Below are positions 2,693 to 40,062 of a stretch of DNA of 40,062 nucleotides, in pieces. A program made the position numbers and the translations under genes. The stretch is taken from the IMG/VR virus record IMGVR_UViG_3300042010_000084, positions 1-40,062 of that record; one strand, 5' to 3'. The stretch is from a virus. Positions within the stretch are counted from its first letter, which is position 1; each line of letters opens with the position of its first letter. Below the pieces are notes generated by a model that saw nothing but the letters and a program-made list of their open reading frames with translations, was not told the origin of the DNA and did no database searches.

Positions 2693-2863
2693 ATGAGCCG
2701 CGCCGAACTAAGCGAGAAAATCCGCGCCCTTCGCGGCGATGACGCGATCCGCTTCATTGGCTGGCTGGCTAATTCGCTTCTCGACGAATGGGACGACCCG
2801 ACCGTTGCCGAGGAATCGGCCAACTACATCGAATGGCTAGAATCTCAACCCAAGAAACTATGA
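2693..2863 (+). CDS. 56-residue acidic hypothetical protein
   Basis: It starts MSRAELSEKIRAL and is mostly predicted helix with an acidic C-terminal half (DEWDDPTVAEESANYIEWLE). I chose the ATG at 2693, because the in-frame ATG at 2666 overlaps the preceding gene. The stop overlaps the next gene start (ATGA at 2860), which indicates coupled translation. No family recognised. Small acidic early proteins often bind host proteins, but nothing specific supports that here. Confidence 0.6.
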   Translation: MSRAELSEKIRALRGDDAIRFIGWLANSLLDEWDDPTVAEESANYIEWLESQPKKL

Positions 2864-3096
2864 ACATCTACAGCAAAATCGACCGCATGCGCTGGACGGA
2901 AACCTGCTGCGTCTGCGGACGAGAGGAAGAATTCGCCACCGAGGAGACCTTCGACATCACCAAGGGCGCCATGGGCGCGGAGTTCGAACAGCAGAAGGAA
3001 CTCGCCCGCCAAGAGGCCGGATGGGAAGACGGGTATTGCCCCGACCACATCGGCGTCTTGATCCAGGAACAACGCGAACTCGGGAGGGAGTCATGA
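2860..3096 (+). CDS. 78-residue protein with probable zinc-binding Cys/His motif
   Basis: It starts MNIYSKIDRMRW. A TCCVCGREEEF segment supplies a CxxC-type half site, and CPDHIG near the C-terminus supplies Cys and His, so a small zinc-binding knuckle is likely. The middle is a charged helix. Start and stop overlap both neighbours (2860-2863 and 3093-3096). Function unknown. A DNA- or protein-binding early protein is possible. Confidence 0.6.
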   Translation: MNIYSKIDRMRWTETCCVCGREEEFATEETFDITKGAMGAEFEQQKELARQEAGWEDGYCPDHIGVLIQEQRELGRES

Positions 3097-3344
3097 CCAT
3101 CACGGAACGCCTTCGCCATGACCGAGCGAACCACTGGATCTTCTGCGTCGGGGCCGCGATCATCGGCGCGCTCAGCTTTACCGGAGGATTCTTCACGCTT
3201 GCCGTGAATCCGCCTGCGGGATGCCTTGCCAATCTCCTCGCCGTCGCATGCGTGGCGATCTCACGCGCCCAATACCGCGAAGCCCGCCGCCACGGTCGGT
3301 TGATCCGCGTGGAGGAATCACGCAAACGAATCACTCGCATTTGA
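3093..3344 (+). CDS. 83-residue membrane protein directly upstream of the PEP-CTERM gene
   Basis: A strong ribosome binding site (GGGAGGGAG) precedes this ATG, which is rare in this genome. After a basic N-terminus (MTITERLRHDRANHW) come two hydrophobic segments (IFCVGAAIIGALSFTGGFF, then CLANLLAVACVAI) and a basic tail. The stop is TGA followed by C, and the next gene is in the same frame, starting one codon later at 3348. Stop readthrough would give a fusion of membrane segments with the PEP-CTERM protein. On its own it looks like a small inner-membrane protein. Confidence 0.65.
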   Translation: MTITERLRHDRANHWIFCVGAAIIGALSFTGGFFTLAVNPPAGCLANLLAVACVAISRAQYREARRHGRLIRVEESRKRITRI

Positions 3345-3347
3345 CTC

Positions 3348-3806
3348 ATGATCACCTACCAAATCACCGGCTCGCCGGACTACCCTGGCACGCTTCTCTC
3401 GCTGACCGAAGACGGCGGCACGCTCACGCTCTCAAACGACTCCACGAACGGCGCGATCATCACCTCGATCCACTTCGAGGCCGAGGTTTCACTGACGGTC
3501 GCCGAAGCCTCGCAATACGTCCATTTCACGGCGGGCGATAAGAACCTGCCGCAAGGTCAGGACCTCAGCTTCGAATCGCTCTCCGCGCTACTGGCCGACA
3601 GCCCGGCCCCTAAGAACGGCATCGGCGCGGGCGAACGCCTGAGCTTCACTCTCAATCAACCCTACGCCGGCCGCATTGGCTTCCACGTCCAATCCATCGG
3701 CGATGCCGCCGAGTCCGCGACCTGCCTCGCGACCGTGCCCGAACCCGGGGCCGCCGTGCTGTTCCTCTCATTCGCCGCGGTCGCCTTCCTCCGCCGCAAA
3801 CGCTAA
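3348..3806 (+). CDS. PEP-CTERM sorting-signal protein
   Basis: The protein has 152 residues. The C-terminus has all three parts of a PEP-CTERM signal: VPEP (PEP at 131-133), a hydrophobic helix (AAVLFLSFAAVAFL) and a basic end (RRKR). Exosortases recognise this signal in host proteins bound for the cell surface or biofilm matrix. The body is rich in Thr, Ser and Gly with beta-strand character (TLTLSN, IHFEAEVSLTV) and suggests a small extracellular domain. No N-terminal signal peptide is present, although family members normally have one. The gene lies in the same frame as the membrane protein upstream. A surface-exclusion or host-modifying role is conjecture. Confidence 0.8.
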   Translation: MITYQITGSPDYPGTLLSLTEDGGTLTLSNDSTNGAIITSIHFEAEVSLTVAEASQYVHFTAGDKNLPQGQDLSFESLSALLADSPAPKNGIGAGERLSFTLNQPYAGRIGFHVQSIGDAAESATCLATVPEPGAAVLFLSFAAVAFLRRKR

Positions 3807-3814
3807 CCCATCAG

Positions 3815-4231
3815 ATGCTTAAAATCATGAATCTCATCATCAGTGGCCCAATGGCCGAAGGAGCGAAAAGCGGGGTGTGGGAATCCTTCACCAAAAAGGA
3901 CGGCGCTCACTATAACAACTATGGTTGCCCCAATGAGCATGGAATGGAGGGGCTTCGCCAAATTTTCCCGACAGGCGAGGCCGATGAATACAACTTCGTG
4001 CTTTTCTCAACGAGTGGAGTGCATGGTTCTTATTCGACCGTTGAGGAGGTGGAAAACGCCAGCCCCGACGAAGAGGGATACACGCAAAATACAGTCACTT
4101 TCGTCATCGTTCATCCTCGCATCTGCTGTCTTCGTTGTGGCAATTGTATTCCAAAAACGCCCGAAGACTTCGCATTCTTAAAGCGCCTACGCGAAACGTC
4201 GTGGGCAGCCATGGCCAAGATCGGCGCGTAA
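3815..4231 (+). CDS. Conserved hypothetical protein, 138 residues
   Basis: It contains NFVLFSTSGVHGSYSTVEE, then VTFVIVHPRICCLRCGNC and TPEDFAFLKRLR. This pattern is familiar to me from uncharacterised phage early proteins, but I cannot attach a function. Three Cys in CCLRCGNC may bind metal. A second possible start is the ATG at 3827. Codon choice is less GC-rich than in neighbouring genes, which may hint at separate acquisition. Confidence 0.6.
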   Translation: MLKIMNLIISGPMAEGAKSGVWESFTKKDGAHYNNYGCPNEHGMEGLRQIFPTGEADEYNFVLFSTSGVHGSYSTVEEVENASPDEEGYTQNTVTFVIVHPRICCLRCGNCIPKTPEDFAFLKRLRETSWAAMAKIGA

Positions 4232-4254: not shown

Positions 4255-5097
4255 ATGAATACCCAACTGACCGAATCCAATCCGCTCCTCCCGCAAAATC
4301 ACGGCGCTCTCGCGTCCATCGAAGGCCAGCGCGCCATCCAAGAAGTCCAAGCCGCGCTGGTGATCGCCAAACGATTCCCGCGCGACGAAAAGGCATCGCT
4401 CGACAAGATCCTCAACGCGTGCTCTCGCCAAGGGCTCGCCGAGCAAGCCGAATATTCCTTTTCCCGTGGCGGAACCGACATCACCGGGCCGTCGATCCGA
4501 CTCGCCGAAGCGATCGCTGGCTATTGGGGCAACATTGAGTTCGGCTTCCGCGAAATCGCCCGCAGCAAAGGCTCTGACGGTGTCGGCGTGTCCGAGGTGG
4601 AATCATACGCTTGGGACATGGAAAACAACGTGCGCCGCCCCGCTCGCTTCACGGTGCGGCATTGGCGTGACACCCGCGCGGGCGGCTACGCGCTGAAGGA
4701 TGAGCGCGATATTTACGAGCTGATCGCCAACCAGGCCCAGCGCCGCGTCCGCGCATGCCTGTTGGCCGTGATCCCTGGCGACGTGGTCGAAGAGGCTCAG
4801 CGTCAATGCGCGGCCACCCTCAGCGCCGAGGCCGACACTTCCGCCGACGCACTGAAAAAGATGGTCGATCGATTTCAGCCATTCGGCGTCACCAAGGAAC
4901 AAATCGAGAAGCGCATTCAGCGACGTCTCGAAGCGATCACGCCAGCGCAAATCGTCAGCCTTCGCCGAGTTTATAACTCGCTCAAGGACGGCATGAGCGT
5001 GGCTGCCGACTGGTTCGAAGTCGAAACCGTGGTGGAAACCAACCCGCTCACCAAGGCCGAGAAGCCAGCCGCGAAAACCGAAACCCCAACCGCCTGA
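4255..5097 (+). CDS. Candidate single-strand annealing/recombination partner protein
   Basis: The protein has 280 residues starting MNTQLTESNPLLPQ. The core EGQRAIQEVQAALVIAKRFP, then LNACSRQGLAEQAEYSFSRG, DITGPSIRLAEA and DIYELIANQAQRRVRACLLA, matches a phage family that, as I recall it, is found beside RecE-like nucleases. The next gene is such a nuclease four bases away. By analogy with RecT/RecE and Bet/Exo pairs it may be the annealing protein or a nuclease partner, but it is not a recognisable RecT, Erf or Sak. The start at 4255 is preferred because an upstream in-frame ATG lies deep in the preceding gene. Confidence 0.6.
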   Translation: MNTQLTESNPLLPQNHGALASIEGQRAIQEVQAALVIAKRFPRDEKASLDKILNACSRQGLAEQAEYSFSRGGTDITGPSIRLAEAIAGYWGNIEFGFREIARSKGSDGVGVSEVESYAWDMENNVRRPARFTVRHWRDTRAGGYALKDERDIYELIANQAQRRVRACLLAVIPGDVVEEAQRQCAATLSAEADTSADALKKMVDRFQPFGVTKEQIEKRIQRRLEAITPAQIVSLRRVYNSLKDGMSVAADWFEVETVVETNPLTKAEKPAAKTETPTA

Positions 5098-5100
5098 GCC

Positions 5101-6111
5101 ATGCCGCGAGAAATGACCCTGCCGCTCAAACCGGAAACCGAGCCGCGCTTTTTCCAGAAGCTCGCCGAGGCCGAGGCGAAGAAAGATCCGGTCGCCGCAC
5201 CTGTGACCGCGCTCTGGCCCGCGCCGGGCGTCTATCACGGCATGAAGCCCGCCGACTACCATGCGACCCGCGAGATCGACGGCACGCGCATCGCCTCCAA
5301 GTCGCTGCTGTGGGATTTCTTTCCGAATCCTCGCCGCTGGAATGATTCGCCGCCCAAGGAAGTGACCGCGGCGATGCGCTGGGGCAGCTTGGTCGATTGT
5401 CTGACGCTGACGCCCTCGCTCTTCGCGGAGAGCTACGTGGTCGCCCCGGAGACTTACCTTGCCCCGGAAAGCGCCAAGAAGGATGCGCCGATGATCGCAA
5501 AGCCGTGGAACTGGAATGCCAACGCTTGCAAGGCGTGGCGTGACGAGCGGCCAGATAAGGAGATCGTGACGGCCGACGACCTCGTTGACGCGACGAAGGC
5601 CATGAACCGCCTGCTCGATCACCCGGCCGTGGCGTCGATGATGGACGGCGCGGCAACCCAGGTCGCGATGCGATTCGATTCTTATCTTCATGGGGACAAG
5701 GTGCTGCCGCTCAAGGGCCTGCTCGACATCGTGCCGAGCCGCCTTGGCGAATGGGGCGACACGCTCGTCGATCTAAAGGAAATCGGCCAACTCGACGACA
5801 TCCGCGGGCTTGAACGGACTATCTACGAGCGCGGCTATCACGCGCAGGCCGCGCTCTATCTCGACATGTGGAACGCGCTCACGGGCGAAAAGCGCAAGGA
5901 GTTCGTGTTCGTCTTCCAGCTTTCGTCAGCGCCGTGGGAAGTGGCCATCGTTCGGCTTAAGCCCGAAGCGTTCGAAGTCGGCCGTGACTGGTATCAGAAG
6001 GCGGCTCGCAAGTGGGTCGAATGCATCACGACCGACATCTGGCCTTCGCCGTGGGATCACATCCAAGAGGCCGGGCTGCCCGCGTATGCCTACGGCAAGG
6101 ATGCTGCATGA
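5101..6111 (+). CDS. RecE-like PD-(D/E)XK exonuclease (DUF3799 type)
   Basis: The protein has 336 residues. Typical elements are RIASKSLLWDFFPNPRRW (substrate loading helix), MRWGSLVDCLTL, then catalytic Asp209 in GLLDIVP, Asp224-x-Lys226 in VDLKE, and the QAALY motif at 249-253. These match phage exonucleases of the RecE C-terminal/DUF3799 family, which resect double-stranded ends for annealing-type recombination. It forms a pair with the upstream gene, and RusA further on completes a recombination set. The first 35 residues are charged and probably disordered. Confidence 0.78.
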   Translation: MPREMTLPLKPETEPRFFQKLAEAEAKKDPVAAPVTALWPAPGVYHGMKPADYHATREIDGTRIASKSLLWDFFPNPRRWNDSPPKEVTAAMRWGSLVDCLTLTPSLFAESYVVAPETYLAPESAKKDAPMIAKPWNWNANACKAWRDERPDKEIVTADDLVDATKAMNRLLDHPAVASMMDGAATQVAMRFDSYLHGDKVLPLKGLLDIVPSRLGEWGDTLVDLKEIGQLDDIRGLERTIYERGYHAQAALYLDMWNALTGEKRKEFVFVFQLSSAPWEVAIVRLKPEAFEVGRDWYQKAARKWVECITTDIWPSPWDHIQEAGLPAYAYGKDAA

Positions 6112-7342: not shown

Positions 7343-7594
7343 ATGGAAAACACTCCGAAAACTGACGCGCTCCCGGGCGTCGAATCTCCATCGGCTGGTT
7401 CTGGAGCCCCTGACGCTCCGCCTCTGAAGTTCGCGGACTGGCTCTTCCCACTCGGGTCATGCCACGCCCGCCTCATCATCGAAGCTGATAAGATCGGCGA
7501 GATCGAACCCGAGGATATGGACGCTCTGGCGGACCTTGCTGCGATACTTAAACGCCAATTGGAGCGCCGGAAATCCCGTCTCCAGAACAGGTGA
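7343..7594 (+). CDS. Hypothetical protein, 83 residues
   Basis: It has a disordered, Pro/Ser/Ala-rich first 30 residues and a C-terminal helical part (DMDALADLAAILKRQLERRK) with a basic end. No recognised domain. It lies directly ahead of the integrase, whose start is 26 bases beyond this stop. A small basic protein next to an integrase could be an excisionase, but no winged-helix pattern is visible, so this is only a possibility. Confidence 0.5.
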   Translation: MENTPKTDALPGVESPSAGSGAPDAPPLKFADWLFPLGSCHARLIIEADKIGEIEPEDMDALADLAAILKRQLERRKSRLQNR

Positions 7595-7619
7595 TTCATC
7601 GGAAAAAAGTTGGTTTATC

Positions 7620-8606
7620 ATGACAACCCAGGAGGCATTGGAACGATTCGATAAGGCGATGCGCGAGATGCGCTTTGCTCGGTCGACCCGTTGCTCCTAT
7701 CGGTCGCACGTCGCCTGCTTTGGTCGGTTCAAGCCCGATGAACCGTGCGCCACGCCGGAAGAGAAGGTTTCGGCCTACCTATCCTGGCTGGCGCTGAACC
7801 GCTCGGAATCCCACCAACGTCAGGGGCTAAACGCGCTCGTCTGCTTTTACAAGGCGATGGGCAGGCCGCTGGCCAAGCTTCCGCCGTGGGTTCGGCCTAA
7901 ACCACGAAACCGAGTGCCGAACTGGGTCACCATGACGGAAGCCCGAGCGATCATTAATCATCTGCGCGAGCCATGGAACGAAGTCGCATCGATGCTGGTC
8001 GGTTCTGGCCTACGCATCGGCGAATGCCTCGACCTGCGCGTCAAAGACCTCGATCTGCACCGCGGGACGGTGACGATCCGTAGCGGCAAGGGTGACAAAG
8101 ACCGGGTGACGCTATTGGCTCGGTCATTGATCCCTGTGCTCGAGCGTCGACTGACTTGTTGCCGTGCGATCTGGCAAGAGGACCGAGCAGCAGGACGACC
8201 AGGGGTTTTTACCCCGGACACGATAACGCGCAAATACCCGCGCGCCGGGCAAGAGTGGGCGTGGTTCTGGTTGTGGCCCGCGCCAGGAGAATCTACCGAC
8301 CCCGATAGCGGCATCGTCCGCCGGCATCATCGCCACGAAGAAGGATTTTCCAAAGCTCTCAAGACTGCGGTCCGGCACGCCGGCATCGGAAAGCGGGTGA
8401 CCGCTCACGCCTTCCGTCACGGTTTCGCGACCGCCTACCTCGAAAACGGCGGGACCGTGCAGGAGCTCCAGCACCTGATGGGCCACTCCAATATCGAGAC
8501 AACCGAGGTGTATCTGCACTGCCTACCTCGGCTGGCGAGCCGCGTCTCCTCGCCGTTGGACGTCGGGATCGACGACGCTCCGATCCCTTTCCGAAAGATT
8601 TCCTGA
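7620..8606 (+). CDS. int: Tyrosine recombinase of the integron-integrase (IntI) type
   Basis: The protein has 328 residues. An N-terminal SAM-like core-binding domain is followed by the catalytic domain with Arg132 (GSGLRIGE), Lys157 (GKGDKDR), His263 and Arg266 (HAFRH), His289 (LMGHSN) and nucleophile Tyr298 (TTEVYLH). Residues 212-245 (EWAWFWLWPAP, then DPDSGIVRRHHRHEE) correspond to the extra segment that separates integron integrases from XerC/D, which in IntI helps bind the extrahelical bases of attC hairpins. All catalytic residues are intact. A phage carrying an IntI-type enzyme is unusual. It may integrate the phage genome. Confidence 0.85.
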   Translation: MTTQEALERFDKAMREMRFARSTRCSYRSHVACFGRFKPDEPCATPEEKVSAYLSWLALNRSESHQRQGLNALVCFYKAMGRPLAKLPPWVRPKPRNRVPNWVTMTEARAIINHLREPWNEVASMLVGSGLRIGECLDLRVKDLDLHRGTVTIRSGKGDKDRVTLLARSLIPVLERRLTCCRAIWQEDRAAGRPGVFTPDTITRKYPRAGQEWAWFWLWPAPGESTDPDSGIVRRHHRHEEGFSKALKTAVRHAGIGKRVTAHAFRHGFATAYLENGGTVQELQHLMGHSNIETTEVYLHCLPRLASRVSSPLDVGIDDAPIPFRKIS

Positions 8607-15118: not shown

Positions 15119-15201
15119 GGTCTTGCTAGTTTAACGGTAAAACGCTCGCCCCTGCGCGCAAAGGGCGAAAGTTACGGGTTCGAATCCCGCCAAGGCCACC
15201 A
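15119..15201 (+). tRNA. tRNA-like element 1 with enlarged anticodon loop
   Basis: The acceptor arms GGTCTTG (15119-15125) and CAAGGCC (15191-15197) pair fully with one G-U, and an encoded ACCA end follows (15198-15201). The D arm GTTT/AAAC (15129-15132, 15140-15143) encloses the invariant GG. The T arm has a TTCGAAT loop and four GC pairs. The anticodon stem TCGCCC/GGGCGA closes an 11-base loop rather than 7. If the single T is U33, the anticodon reads GCG (Arg), but identity is uncertain. There is one extra base between the acceptor and D arms. Confidence 0.65.
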
Positions 15202-15208
15202 CTTTCAC

Positions 15209-15282
15209 CCATCGCTAACTCAACGGTAGAGCGTCGGCCCCAAGAGGCAGGCGGGTTCCCGGTTCAAGTCCGGGGTGATGGG
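15209..15282 (+). tRNA. tRNA-like element 2 with irregular anticodon arm
   Basis: The acceptor CCATCGC (15209-15215) pairs with GTGATGG (15275-15281). The D arm ACTC/GAGC encloses AACGGTA, and the T arm CCCGG/CCGGG encloses a TTCAAGT loop. The anticodon stem has an internal G-A mismatch and a loop of 6-8 bases (within CCCAAGAG) with no U33, so no anticodon can be assigned. No CCA is encoded. It starts eight bases after element 1 and probably shares its transcript. Confidence 0.5.
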
Positions 15283-15457
15283 TTAAACTCTCCACAAAAA
15301 CGAAGCCAGCCGGGCGGAACCACCTGTTCGCAGGCCGACGAAGACGGCAGGAGATCGCATTTGAGCGGGCGCGGCGAAACGGCGTCACCGGATCTCGTAA
15401 CCGGGCAATTTAATTCTTGAATGTCTTGGCGCTTAAATGTTACGGCATCCCGTAACG
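15283..15457 (+). promoter_or_regulatory. Intergenic region before the late block
   Basis: About 175 bases follow tRNA-like element 2 without a supported gene. The last 55 bases turn AT-richer (CAATTTAATTCTTGAATGTC) and are a likely promoter region for the packaging and virion block. A CGTAAC half-site lies at 15396-15401, and a full palindrome with the same core lies at 15439-15456. No clear -35/-10 pair could be fixed. Confidence 0.35.
15439..15456 (+). promoter_or_regulatory. Palindromic operator-like site at the regulator start
   Basis: GTTACGG-CATC-CCGTAAC is a perfect inverted repeat with seven-base arms, ending one base before the ATG at 15458 of a winged-helix regulator. Position and symmetry suggest an autoregulatory operator or a hairpin hiding the translation start. 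Confidence 0.5.
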
Positions 15458-18338: not shown

Positions 18339-19994
18339 ATGGACGGCCAGCAAATCGTCAAGTCGCGCGACGCGCTCAAGAGCGAGTATATGCCGCTCAC
18401 GTCGCACATGCAGGAGCTTTCCCAGCTCTACATGCCTTTCGACCACAATGGAGAGGGCATGCACATCTACGGCTGGGACTCCTCCATGATGTTCGATTCC
18501 ACGCCGCGCCAAGCGGCTGGGATCTGCGTCAATGGCTTGTGCTCGCTGGTCGCGCCACGAAATGACGAGTGGTTCGAGTGGTCGCCGCCGGTCGCGATTC
18601 GCAAGGACGAGCAGGCCATCGCCTACTACCGTGAATGCACCGAGATCGCCCGCGCATTCATCGACGCCTCAAACTTCTACGAGGAGTTTCACTCCGCCGT
18701 CCGCGAGCTGGTGATTTACGGCACCGGCAACCTGTTCTGCGGCGACTTGGATGAGCGCGGCGAGCTTTATTTCCGCATGATCCCAATGGGGTCATATTAC
18801 TTCGCGGAGAACGTGCGCGGCCGACCGACCGAGGTTTACCGCGATCTTTTCTACACCGCCAAGCAGGCTGCCGACGAATTCGGCGAGGACAAGCTGCCCA
18901 AGGATGTCAAGGCCAAGCTCGGCAAGCCCGAAGCCAATACCGAGCGGCATGAGTTCGTGCACGCCGTCTATAAGCGCAAGGACGCGCCGGACGCCAACGA
19001 GCCGGAAGGCATGAAGGGGGCATGGAAGTCCTGCACGGTGCATGCCAAGTCCAAGCAGGTCGTCAAGGAAGAGACCTTTGCCGAGTTCCCGTTCGCCATT
19101 GGGCGCTACGAACGCTTCCCTCGCTGCGTGTGGGGGTTTGGTCCTGGCTCCCTTGCCAAGGGTGACAGCCGCCAGCTCAATTTCCTCAATGAACTGGCCG
19201 ATCTCGCGACCGAAAAGAGCGTGTTCCCACCGGTGGAAGCGCCCGCCGGCATGGAAGGCGAGATCGCGCTTGGCGCGTTGGAGGTGAATTACCGGCCGGA
19301 CGACAGCTCTCCCGGCCAGATCAAGGAAATCCAGACCGCCGCGCGCTTCGACGTCGCGTTCCAACGGCTACAGGACAAGCGCGAGCAGGTCAACAAGGCG
19401 TTTTTCGTGGACCTGTTCACGATGTTCGCGTTGCAGGCCCAGCAGCCCGGCCAGATCACCGCCTACCAGGCCAGCCAAATGGCGGGCGAGAAGCTGACCC
19501 AATTCTCGCCGATCTTCGGCCGCCTCGTCTCGGAAAAACTCGATGTGGCTCTCGACCGGGTATTTGGAGGGTTGTTCCGCGCCGGCATGTTCCCTCCTCC
19601 CCCGCCATCGGTGGCGCAAGTGGACAACGAAGGCAAGGTGCGAGGCATCGCCATCCCGTCGAAGCTCTACAAGAACCGCATCGTGCTCGCCCAGCAGGCG
19701 AAGCAGAACCATTCGATTCTGGAGTTCATCCAGATCGCCGCGCCGATGATCCAGCTTGACCCGACTGCCGCGGACGGAATCAAGCTTCCCGACACGTTCA
19801 AGCGCGTCGCTCGCAACAATGGAGTGCCTGAGGATCTTCTGCGCAGCGAGGTCGAGCTTAAAGCCGTGCAAGCGGCGCGCGCGGAAGCCGCCCAGCAGCA
19901 GCAGCGGCTCGCCAACGCGGAGACCGCCAGCAAGACGGCCGCGAATCTCTCCAAGGCCGGGCCGGTCATCGGCCAGATCGGCGGCATGATGTAA
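18339..19994 (+). CDS. Portal (head-to-tail connector) protein, T7 gp8-like
   Basis: The protein has 551 residues, close to T7 gp8. SQLYMPFDHNGEGMHIYGWD, APRNDEWFEWSPP, ELVIYGTGNLFCGDLDERGE and RFPRCVWGFGPGSLAKGDSR are typical of podovirus head-tail connectors. The C-terminal 80 residues are a Gln/Ala-rich helix (AEAAQQQQRLANAETASKT), as in portal barrels. It forms the dodecameric ring through which DNA enters and leaves, binding terminase first and the tail tube later. Confidence 0.85.
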   Translation: MDGQQIVKSRDALKSEYMPLTSHMQELSQLYMPFDHNGEGMHIYGWDSSMMFDSTPRQAAGICVNGLCSLVAPRNDEWFEWSPPVAIRKDEQAIAYYRECTEIARAFIDASNFYEEFHSAVRELVIYGTGNLFCGDLDERGELYFRMIPMGSYYFAENVRGRPTEVYRDLFYTAKQAADEFGEDKLPKDVKAKLGKPEANTERHEFVHAVYKRKDAPDANEPEGMKGAWKSCTVHAKSKQVVKEETFAEFPFAIGRYERFPRCVWGFGPGSLAKGDSRQLNFLNELADLATEKSVFPPVEAPAGMEGEIALGALEVNYRPDDSSPGQIKEIQTAARFDVAFQRLQDKREQVNKAFFVDLFTMFALQAQQPGQITAYQASQMAGEKLTQFSPIFGRLVSEKLDVALDRVFGGLFRAGMFPPPPPSVAQVDNEGKVRGIAIPSKLYKNRIVLAQQAKQNHSILEFIQIAAPMIQLDPTAADGIKLPDTFKRVARNNGVPEDLLRSEVELKAVQAARAEAAQQQQRLANAETASKTAANLSKAGPVIGQIGGMM

Positions 19995-37512: not shown

Positions 37513-37803
37513 ATGGACCTCAACGGAAACAACCCGATCACCGCGGACGGCGACTACGATTGCACCGTCGATCCCGGCCGCTGGTATCTCTTCACCGCGC
37601 GTGACGACTTCGGCGGCGGCACGATCACGCTGAAAACCAAGAACCCGACCGATGGGCTCTTTTACGACGTCCTCAACGGATCATTCACGGCCGCCGCGGA
37701 GTTCGATTTCAAGTCTGACGGCGGCACCGTGCGCGTCGTCCTGGCCGGCGCGACCTCGCCGAACATCCCGATTGCTATCGTCCCGATCTATCCGAACGCA
37801 TGA
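37513..37803 (+). CDS. Small tail-module protein, 96 residues
   Basis: It starts MDLNGNNPITADGDYDCTVD. Short beta-rich protein (RWYLFTARDDFGGGTITLKT, RVVLAGATSPNIPIAI) like tail-tip or assembly proteins encoded between fibre genes. The stop overlaps the next gene (ATGA at 37800). Function unknown. Confidence 0.5.
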   Translation: MDLNGNNPITADGDYDCTVDPGRWYLFTARDDFGGGTITLKTKNPTDGLFYDVLNGSFTAAAEFDFKSDGGTVRVVLAGATSPNIPIAIVPIYPNA

Positions 37804-39341
37804 AACGCTTCCTCATTCTCCTGCTGGCGCTGGCCGGGATCTCCTCCGGCCAGATCATCAGACCCACCCCGGTCACCTCGGCGGACCTTGCGACCAAGCA
37901 ACCGCTCGACGCCGCGCTTACGGCTTTGGCCGCCGGCAGCGACTTCGTGCGATTCTCCGGCCCGACGACCAGCGTTAAAGTCTTCACGCTGCCGGATGCG
38001 TCCTCGACGATCCTCGTCAGTGGCGGGGCGCTCGGCACGCCTTCTTCGGCAACTCTGACGAACGCCACCGGGCTGCCGATTTCAACCGGCGTTTCCGGCT
38101 TGGGAACCAACGTGGCGACCGCGCTCGGTGTCAACGTCGGTTCGGCTGGTTCGATCGTCGTGAATGGCGGCGTCCTCGGGACTCCATCCAGCGGCACGCT
38201 CACCAATGCGACTGGCCTCCCTGTCTCCACCGGAATCAGCGGGCTAGGAACCGGGGTCGCCACCGCGCTGGCGGTCAATACCGGATCGGCGGGCGCTCCC
38301 GTGCTTTTTGACGGAGCGGGCGGAACCCCCACGAGTATTACCCTCACCAACGGCACGGGGTTGCCGGTATCGACGGGGATCAGCGGCTTAGGCACTGGCG
38401 TCGCCACTTTCCTCGCCACGCCCTCGAGCGCCAACCTGAGAAGCGCGATCACGGACGAGACTGGAACGGGAGTGGCGGTTTTCGCGGACACTCCCACATT
38501 CGTCACCCGGACAAATTCGCCGATCTATCGAGGCACCGGCACCGACGTCGTGGTTCAAGACGGATCGGGCAATCAGGCATTCCGCAGTGTCAACTCGACC
38601 ACCTGGACCGACGCGGCGACGGGGCAATACTTTCAGGTCGGCGCGCAGGGCGGAAACGCGATTTTCACCAGTGCCAACGCGGTAAATTTCGGCCGGTTCG
38701 CCAACTTCACGGAATCCTTTCAAATCAGCTCCGGGGCGCGAGCCACCACGCCCATCCCAAGCGGTCGATTTGACATCATCAATTCCTCCGTTGCTCGCGT
38801 ATTCAACGTCACCAATGAAGGAATGGTAGCGTCGGCCACCGGCACCACTTCCAAGCTGGTCCGTCTCGGCGGAAAGATCAAAGAGTTCTACGCGGACGCT
38901 GGCAACAGCGGCACGTCCGAGACGGACCTTTACAGCTACACGACCGAGGCAGGGCTGCTTTCCAACAACGGCGAGACAATCACTGCAACCTACGGCGGCA
39001 GCTTCGTCGATTCCGGCGGCACGGCTACGCGTCAGCTAAAGCTCTACTTTGGAGGAACCGCTATTGCGGACTTCGGCGCATTGACGATTTCTGGAGCCGC
39101 AAGCTGGACTATGCGATGCTCCTTGATCCGTGTTAGCTCAACAGTCGTCCGGTATGAGGCAAGCCTGACGTCCGGCGGGATCACTACGGTCATTCCTCCC
39201 GCTGTCGGTGAGCTTACGGGGCTCACGCTGTCCAATACCAACATCCTAAAGATCACCGGAACCGCCTCCGGTGCGGGCGCGGCTACGAACGATATCGTCG
39301 CCAAAATGGGCGCGGTTTATTACTGGCCCGCTTCTCTCTGA
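37800..39341 (+). CDS. Repeat-containing tail fibre with N-terminal signal peptide
   Basis: The protein has 513 residues. The N-terminus MKRFLILLLALAGISSGQ is a good Sec signal peptide, with possible cleavage near residue 17. Residues about 75-215 hold three copies of a roughly 48-residue unit (GTPSSGTLTNATGLPVSTGI, then SGLGTGVATAL), a repeat common in phage fibres. The C-terminal 150 residues (KIKEFYADAGNSGTSETDLY to YYWPASL) match a widespread phage fibre tip domain. A virion protein with a secretion signal is odd. It may be exported to the host surface, or the leader may be a remnant of horizontal exchange. Confidence 0.7.
   Translation: MKRFLILLLALAGISSGQIIRPTPVTSADLATKQPLDAALTALAAGSDFVRFSGPTTSVKVFTLPDASSTILVSGGALGTPSSATLTNATGLPISTGVSGLGTNVATALGVNVGSAGSIVVNGGVLGTPSSGTLTNATGLPVSTGISGLGTGVATALAVNTGSAGAPVLFDGAGGTPTSITLTNGTGLPVSTGISGLGTGVATFLATPSSANLRSAITDETGTGVAVFADTPTFVTRTNSPIYRGTGTDVVVQDGSGNQAFRSVNSTTWTDAATGQYFQVGAQGGNAIFTSANAVNFGRFANFTESFQISSGARATTPIPSGRFDIINSSVARVFNVTNEGMVASATGTTSKLVRLGGKIKEFYADAGNSGTSETDLYSYTTEAGLLSNNGETITATYGGSFVDSGGTATRQLKLYFGGTAIADFGALTISGAASWTMRCSLIRVSSTVVRYEASLTSGGITTVIPPAVGELTGLTLSNTNILKITGTASGAGAATNDIVAKMGAVYYWPASL
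38022..38440 (+). repeat. Three in-frame 144-base tandem repeats in the fibre
   Basis: Units begin near 38022, 38166 and 38310 and encode the GTPSS-TLTNATGLPxSTG repeat. The first two are 48 codons long. The third is shorter at its end, and its sequence has diverged (GTPTSITLTNGTG). Such repeats are prone to copy-number change and recombination. Confidence 0.8.
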
Positions 39342-39346
39342 TTCTC

Positions 39347-40062
39347 ATGTCCGTCATCCCCACATTCTCGCCCGAGCAACAGGCATTCCTTCGCGGCATC
39401 ATCGGAGCCGCATCCATCGTCGAAAACGATCCGGCCCGCTTCTGCGAACTGGACATCGCGGACGGAAATCAGAGCTGCACGCATCCGAGTTGGCTTTACG
39501 AACCCGAAGGCTGGAACGGCTTCCAGCATTGGATGGCCGCCACGCCGTTCCCGTCCACCGCCCGCGAAAATCCTCACTTGTGGTGTTCGCATGACGGCGA
39601 CGAGTGGATCACGCCGCCGGGCGCGTCCAACCCGGTGATGCAGCCGGGCGTCATCAACGGCCACAACTTCACCGCCTTTTCCGATCCGTGCATTGGAATC
39701 CTGCACACCAGCGTTGCGGGCGTGGGCGACGCCGGGGACATGGTGATGGTGGCTCGCCCGATGTATCCTTCCAAGGAGGGGATTTATTTCAAAACCACCA
39801 AGGACGGCGTGACGTGGAGCGACTACGTCGAAATGCTCTACGCGGACCGGCCCGGCGACACCGGCTACGCGCTGCTATCGCCATCATGGGTTCAAGAAGA
39901 CGACGGCACGTTCACGCTGTGGATTTGCACCGGCACCGGCATGACCAAGCAAACCAGCGCGGACATGCGCAACTGGTCCTCTCCGGTCGCCTGCACGTTC
40001 CAGCACTCGCTGGTCAATGAAGTCTGGCACGCCACGGTCAAGAAGCGCGACGGCATCTATTA
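39347..40062 (+). CDS. Spike/receptor-binding protein, N-terminal part (continues at 1-988)
   Basis: The ATG at 39347 is five bases past the fibre stop. The frame starts MSVIPTFSPEQQAFLRGIIG and runs open to the window end, then continues without a break into bases 1-988 once the 249-base overlap is removed. The N-terminal 30 residues may attach to the fibre. The beta-propeller begins near residue 60 with CSHDGDEWITPPG and continues with KTTKDGVTWSDYV. The two mismatches between the overlap copies fall in this gene: one is silent (Pro) and one changes Ala to Thr in LWICTGxGM. Confidence 0.78.
   Translation, partial: MSVIPTFSPEQQAFLRGIIGAASIVENDPARFCELDIADGNQSCTHPSWLYEPEGWNGFQHWMAATPFPSTARENPHLWCSHDGDEWITPPGASNPVMQPGVINGHNFTAFSDPCIGILHTSVAGVGDAGDMVMVARPMYPSKEGIYFKTTKDGVTWSDYVEMLYADRPGDTGYALLSPSWVQEDDGTFTLWICTGTGMTKQTSADMRNWSSPVACTFQHSLVNEVWHATVKKRDGIY
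39814..40062. repeat. Terminal overlap, right copy
   Basis: Same 249 bases as 1-249 with two substitutions (39883 A versus C, 39935 A versus G). It marks the point where the circular map closes. The unit length without the overlap is 39813 bases. Confidence 0.93.

Follow-up and report, generated by a model that had tools for sequence, protein, structure and literature searches.

Results

A PEP-CTERM-like gene among the recombination genes of a podovirus-like virus

The window, a 40,062-nt IMG/VR virus record analyzed here over its whole length, contains on its plus strand an ORF at positions 3348–3806 that starts with ATG and ends in ATVPEPGAAVLFLSFAAVAFLRRKR*. Its 152-aa product is PEP-CTERM-like, with a predicted all-beta body (residues 1–128), a tripartite C-terminal tail and no signal peptide. 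Around it lies a run of tightly packed plus-strand genes, the first of which (2860–3096) encodes a small cysteine-containing protein of 78 aa. This is joined by an ATGA overlap to the gene for an 83-aa protein with two hydrophobic segments (3093–3344), the upstream operon partner of the PEP gene, for which no match was found in Pfam or NCBIfam and only a non-significant one in PHROG. The PEP gene follows this two-helix gene after 3 bp and ends 8 bp before a gene for a 138-aa protein of unknown function (3815–4231). Next in the packed operon come a phrog_3657 protein, also of unknown function (4255–5097; E 6.6e-91), and an exonuclease VIII-like protein (5101–6111; phrog_412, DUF3799). The phrog_3657 protein is probably the single-strand annealing (SSAP-like) partner of the exonuclease, and the PEP gene sits in this recombination operon, which is probably early.

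The remainder of the genome encodes an integrase (7536–8606, plus strand; phrog_1), a replication initiator, a DnaC-like loader, a terminase, a podovirus-type portal or head-tail adaptor (18339–19994, plus strand; phrog_332), a major head protein and a tail protein, and the source is a podovirus-like bacterial virus with an integrase. Positions 1–249 match positions 39814–40062 (249 bp, 99.2%); the contig therefore closes on itself and represents a near-complete genome of about 39.8 kb. The first part of ORF 20–988 recurs in the open frame at the contig end, so this ORF is the 3′ portion of a longer gene spanning the ends. Elsewhere, a predicted tail-region protein (37800–39341) starts with a strong signal-peptide-like segment, MKRFLILLLALAGISSGQ, which is unusual for a virion protein; and ARAGORN places two neighboring tRNA-like genes with odd anticodons at 15119–15283, the first of which alone passes the Rfam tRNA threshold (30.5 bits versus 29).

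The tail is genuine and lies in a real coding sequence

The initial annotation reported a complete tripartite exosortase signal at the C-terminus of this protein, and this is indeed present. VPEP occupies residues 130–133 of 152, in keeping with the spacing of about 20–25 residues from the C-terminus by which PEP-CTERM proteins are defined, and is followed by a hydrophobic helix, GAAVLFLSFAAVAFL (11-aa hydropathy 2.64), and then RRKR. In a six-frame search of the record, the tail (VPEPGAAVLFLSFAAVAFLRRKR; 3735–3803, plus strand) matches the NCBIfam model PEP_CTERM (TIGR02595) at 19.8 bits (E 9e-5), above the cut-off of 16; in the protein scan the same model gives 15.9 bits. Thus the match lies at threshold, and the outcome named in the initial annotation as fatal to its proposal, no match to any PEP-CTERM model, did not occur. 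The Pfam model PF07589 gives 16.0 bits, below its gathering score of 20.7. The best whole-protein match is to the PEP-CTERM family NF038129, to which residues 24–152 align (E 2.3e-4), at a score of 21.1 bits that falls short of the curated cut-off of 65 for membership.

Scores so close to the cut-offs (15.9/16 and 16.0/20.7) might be taken to mean that a phage membrane protein resembles PEP-CTERM proteins by chance. We regard this as highly improbable. The combination of PEP, hydrophobic core and basic end was seen in 1 of 3 million simulated random C-terminal 30-mers of phage composition; of 50 virus records that share a related phrog_3657 gene or exonuclease, just one was matched by TIGR02595, in a genuine PEP-CTERM protein (see below); and the body of the protein also aligns, albeit weakly, to a PEP-CTERM family. 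The codon-usage score is 0.22 in the annotated frame and –0.58 and –0.44 in the others, such that the phage's own codon preference is seen in the annotated frame only, and GC3 is 0.82. ORF 3348–3806 is a real coding sequence with a PEP-CTERM-type tail. Its predicted structure is all-beta, in a model of such low confidence (pLDDT 52) that its fold-search result was set aside.

The leader is missing and has no room upstream

Judged by hydropathy and by the upstream frame, the protein has no signal peptide. Its maximum N-terminal hydropathy is 0.47, compared with 1.9–2.9 in leader-bearing phage PEP-CTERM proteins. Immediately upstream, the order is TGA (3342–3344, plus strand), CTC and the ATG at 3348; the stop, which ends the upstream ORF, lies in the frame of the PEP ORF at –6. 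Because this in-frame TGA stands two codons before the ATG, an N-terminal extension carrying a leader is excluded. About 97% of PEP-CTERM proteins carry a signal peptide, and once Sec export has taken place the PEP motif lies on the periplasmic side of the inner membrane (Haft et al. 2006, PMC1569441). Exosortase cuts on that side, which the product as encoded would not be expected to reach; without export its body would stay on the cytoplasmic side, and canonical exosortase processing is therefore unlikely. No exosortase (PF09721) is encoded in the 40,062-nt record.

These observations bear on the earlier proposal that the phage sends a PEP-CTERM protein to the host surface. The tail and its setting in a phage recombination operon stand; surface sorting, which requires prior Sec export, is not supported for a protein with neither a signal peptide nor the upstream in-frame room for one. 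A true exosortase substrate would have to reach the periplasm without a classical leader, be cut at PEP by the host exosortase and then, exposed on the surface or lodged in the matrix, block superinfection or alter the biofilm. The intact tail speaks for such a substrate, as does the conservation of both leader and tail in the PEP-CTERM proteins of other phages, but we consider it unlikely in view of the absent leader and of a phage that lacks exosortase.

Another route to the membrane could be low-frequency readthrough of the TGA at 3342 (context TGAC), which would fuse the two-helix protein to the PEP protein and target the fusion to the membrane. The two ORFs do share a frame, separated by TGA CTC. 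Against this, the PEP OR​F has its own ATG, no relatives were found in which to check conservation, and positive-inside reasoning, given the basic QYREARRHGRLIRVEESRKRITRI after helix 2, would put both ends inside and leave the body there as well. We give readthrough only a slim chance.

No relatives of the 152-aa protein were found

Searches of viral contigs, INPHARED phages, plasmids and genome collections returned no relatives of the 152-aa protein. A plasmid match (E 0.1) was rejected, as it did not lie under a PEP-CTERM gene, and eight matches in Runella genome contigs were attributed to chance, being short matches to a motif inside a protein of about 1250 aa; the Runella genomes tested contain no PEP-CTERM, and relatives of Runella likewise carry none. 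A 25-aa consensus tail gave no match in INPHARED, in a search made weak by low-complexity filtering. Nor was a closely related phage found, the best portal match in viral contigs being 32% and the best SSAP match 66%. The style of the tail gives the impression, and only that, of a Verrucomicrobiota-like host.

The missing leader, the lack of relatives and the weak family scores would all fit a decaying, functionless remnant of a captured host surface-protein gene. Yet the ORF is intact, its codon usage is normal, its tail motif is preserved, and it is packed into an operon of a compact genome; we think a remnant improbable.

PEP-CTERM proteins with complete sorting signals occur in other phages

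The single TIGR02595 match among the 50 related records falls in L062, where a 251-aa ORF begins with a leader and closes with a PEP-CTERM tail. IMG/VR was scanned for the tail as a DNA pattern, and the matches were filtered by reading frame and hydropathy; this yielded a second member in L126, a contig that also encodes a podovirus-type portal. Identity between the two proteins is 48%. A profile search then placed this family, A2, at 19 loci (L232–L250) in 19 virus contigs. Both seeds recur among these (L062 as L236, L126 as L248), and one protein is shared by L233 and L239 and another by L243 and L244, which makes the number of independent A2 phages somewhat smaller than 19.

A2 proteins are about 240 aa long, and complete members carry a signal peptide as well as a PEP-CTERM tail. 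Seventeen sequences align along their length, 16 of which match TIGR02595; by hydropathy, N-termini are leader-like in all aligned members (one is cut off by a contig end). None of the 17 matches PHROG, and no PHROG family covers A2. The predicted fold is a beta-sandwich with a C-terminal helix (pLDDT 81). Among solved structures it is weakly similar to carbohydrate-binding modules, only a hint at TM-scores of about 0.5 or less. In L238, 2 bp separate the end of the PEP gene from the portal gene; in L242, L237 and L243, terminase or major head genes are close by; and in L233, L234 and L236 the PEP gene comes after a nuclease-like gene (phrog_824/phrog_93). Second PEP-CTERM-type tails are seen in two A2 contigs (L249:8579–9367 and L233:2449–2790), with two PEP-CTERM genes in tandem in L249. 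Among the cultured phages of INPHARED, no relatives of the two A2 members tested were found.

Four further phage contigs encode other PEP-CTERM proteins. L155 also has Erf and a tail lysozyme, L206 a terminase, and L227 a helicase and a methyltransferase; in L151, an MHFG family protein (NF038119, over its cut-off), with a tail just under the TIGR02595 cut-off, is encoded next to a tail protein gene. L163, L175 and L189 encode PEP-CTERM proteins as well and were left out of the phage counts, which call for a verified phage context. Exosortase was absent from all 22 PEP-bearing virus records checked, and a phage using this pathway would therefore depend on the host's.

At least 17 other uncultivated virus contigs, then, carry proteins with both signals intact. 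The broader idea behind the initial annotation, that phages bear PEP-CTERM proteins, is strengthened by A2 and the four additional contigs. A2 keeps both sorting signals in several kinds of phage, at 48–86% identity, which suggests that export through the host exosortase is useful to phages; where the signals are complete, phages most likely do use this route for their proteins.

Discussion

How might a leaderless protein with an exosortase tail have come to lie in a phage operon? The account we favor, though at no better than even chances, is that a bacterial PEP-CTERM surface-protein gene became a phage cargo gene, or moron, without its leader, and that its product is not exported. Such a moron would have kept its beta-rich body together with the sorting tail at the C-terminus, and it lacks the Sec signal peptide. 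The gene is probably expressed with the recombination genes as one operon. Its product would not cross the inner membrane but would probably be anchored there by the C-terminal helix, on the cytoplasmic side, and would be unlikely to serve as a canonical exosortase substrate. We count in favor of this account the tail matches to TIGR02595 and, below its cut-off, PF07589, the leader that some 97% of PEP-CTERM proteins have, the periplasmic placement of their PEP motif, the weak NF038129 alignment, the low-confidence all-beta model, the stop before the ATG, the absence of an N-terminal hydrophobic segment and of PF09721 from a self-closing genome, the phage-like codon use and the tight operon. 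Against it, the VPEP-helix-RRKR tail is complete and well spaced and seems to have been preserved, contrary to what one would expect if sorting was lost long ago. Moreover, the protein is a single known sequence, in which constraint or decay cannot be measured, and no bacterial ancestor was found in the collections searched. Export by a non-Sec route may also bear against it. On balance, a repurposed membrane-associated protein is more likely than surface display for ORF 3348–3806.

A wider reading, which we hold possible but somewhat less likely than not, takes A2 and ORF 3348–3806 together: phages would display proteins of their own on the surface of the host through its PEP-CTERM/exosortase system. 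A2 could coat the cell or matrix and block re-adsorption or superinfection, and the leaderless protein would represent a modified branch, for instance one that sits in the inner membrane and there engages or blocks exosortase. A block to re-adsorption or superinfection would be a plausible reason for phages to retain PEP-CTERM proteins.

So far, exosortase sorting has been regarded as a matter of bacterial surfaces and biofilms. Should phages maintain PEP-CTERM proteins, phage control of the host surface could be studied in hosts with PEP-CTERM, and tested directly with exosortase mutants. ORF 3348–3806 poses a narrower question, the role of a PEP-CTERM tail without export. In a full-text search with most subscription papers outside its coverage, we found no description of phage-encoded exosortase substrates, and the novelty of phage-borne PEP-CTERM proteins is provisional to that extent. 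The nearest report within that coverage, a survey of gene transfer in hot-spring viruses (PMC11003980), lists 13 gene transfers in TIGR03118, whose proteins have a putative exosortase tail.

Compared with the PEP-CTERM/exosortase (EpsH) system (TIGR02595, PF07589; PMC1569441), ORF 3348–3806 shares the PEP motif, the hydrophobic helix, the basic C-terminus and a body of low similarity to known proteins. It differs in having no N-terminal signal peptide and no exosortase in its own genome, and in its gene arrangement: EpsH-system substrates are encoded in single-gene operons behind a large intergenic region, whereas the phage gene is part of a packed operon. With respect to NF038129, residues 24–152 correspond to the C-terminal 118 positions of the model, and the N-terminal 76 positions have no counterpart. 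The MHFG family protein (NF038119) of L151 likewise has a PEP-CTERM-type tail and lies in a phage contig, beside tail genes; its body is different, and it exceeds the curated cut-off of its NCBIfam family. With A2, ORF 3348–3806 has in common a PEP-CTERM protein encoded in a phage genome without an exosortase of its own. The A2 profile finds no match in the window at E≤1, and no similarity to the A2 body (DILNTSSLSVINT, FSMTEQ, LLNRGQTEI) is detectable. Unlike ORF 3348–3806, A2 has an intact signal peptide, and its gene in several genomes lies beside terminase or portal genes, whereas that of the 152-aa protein lies beside recombination genes.
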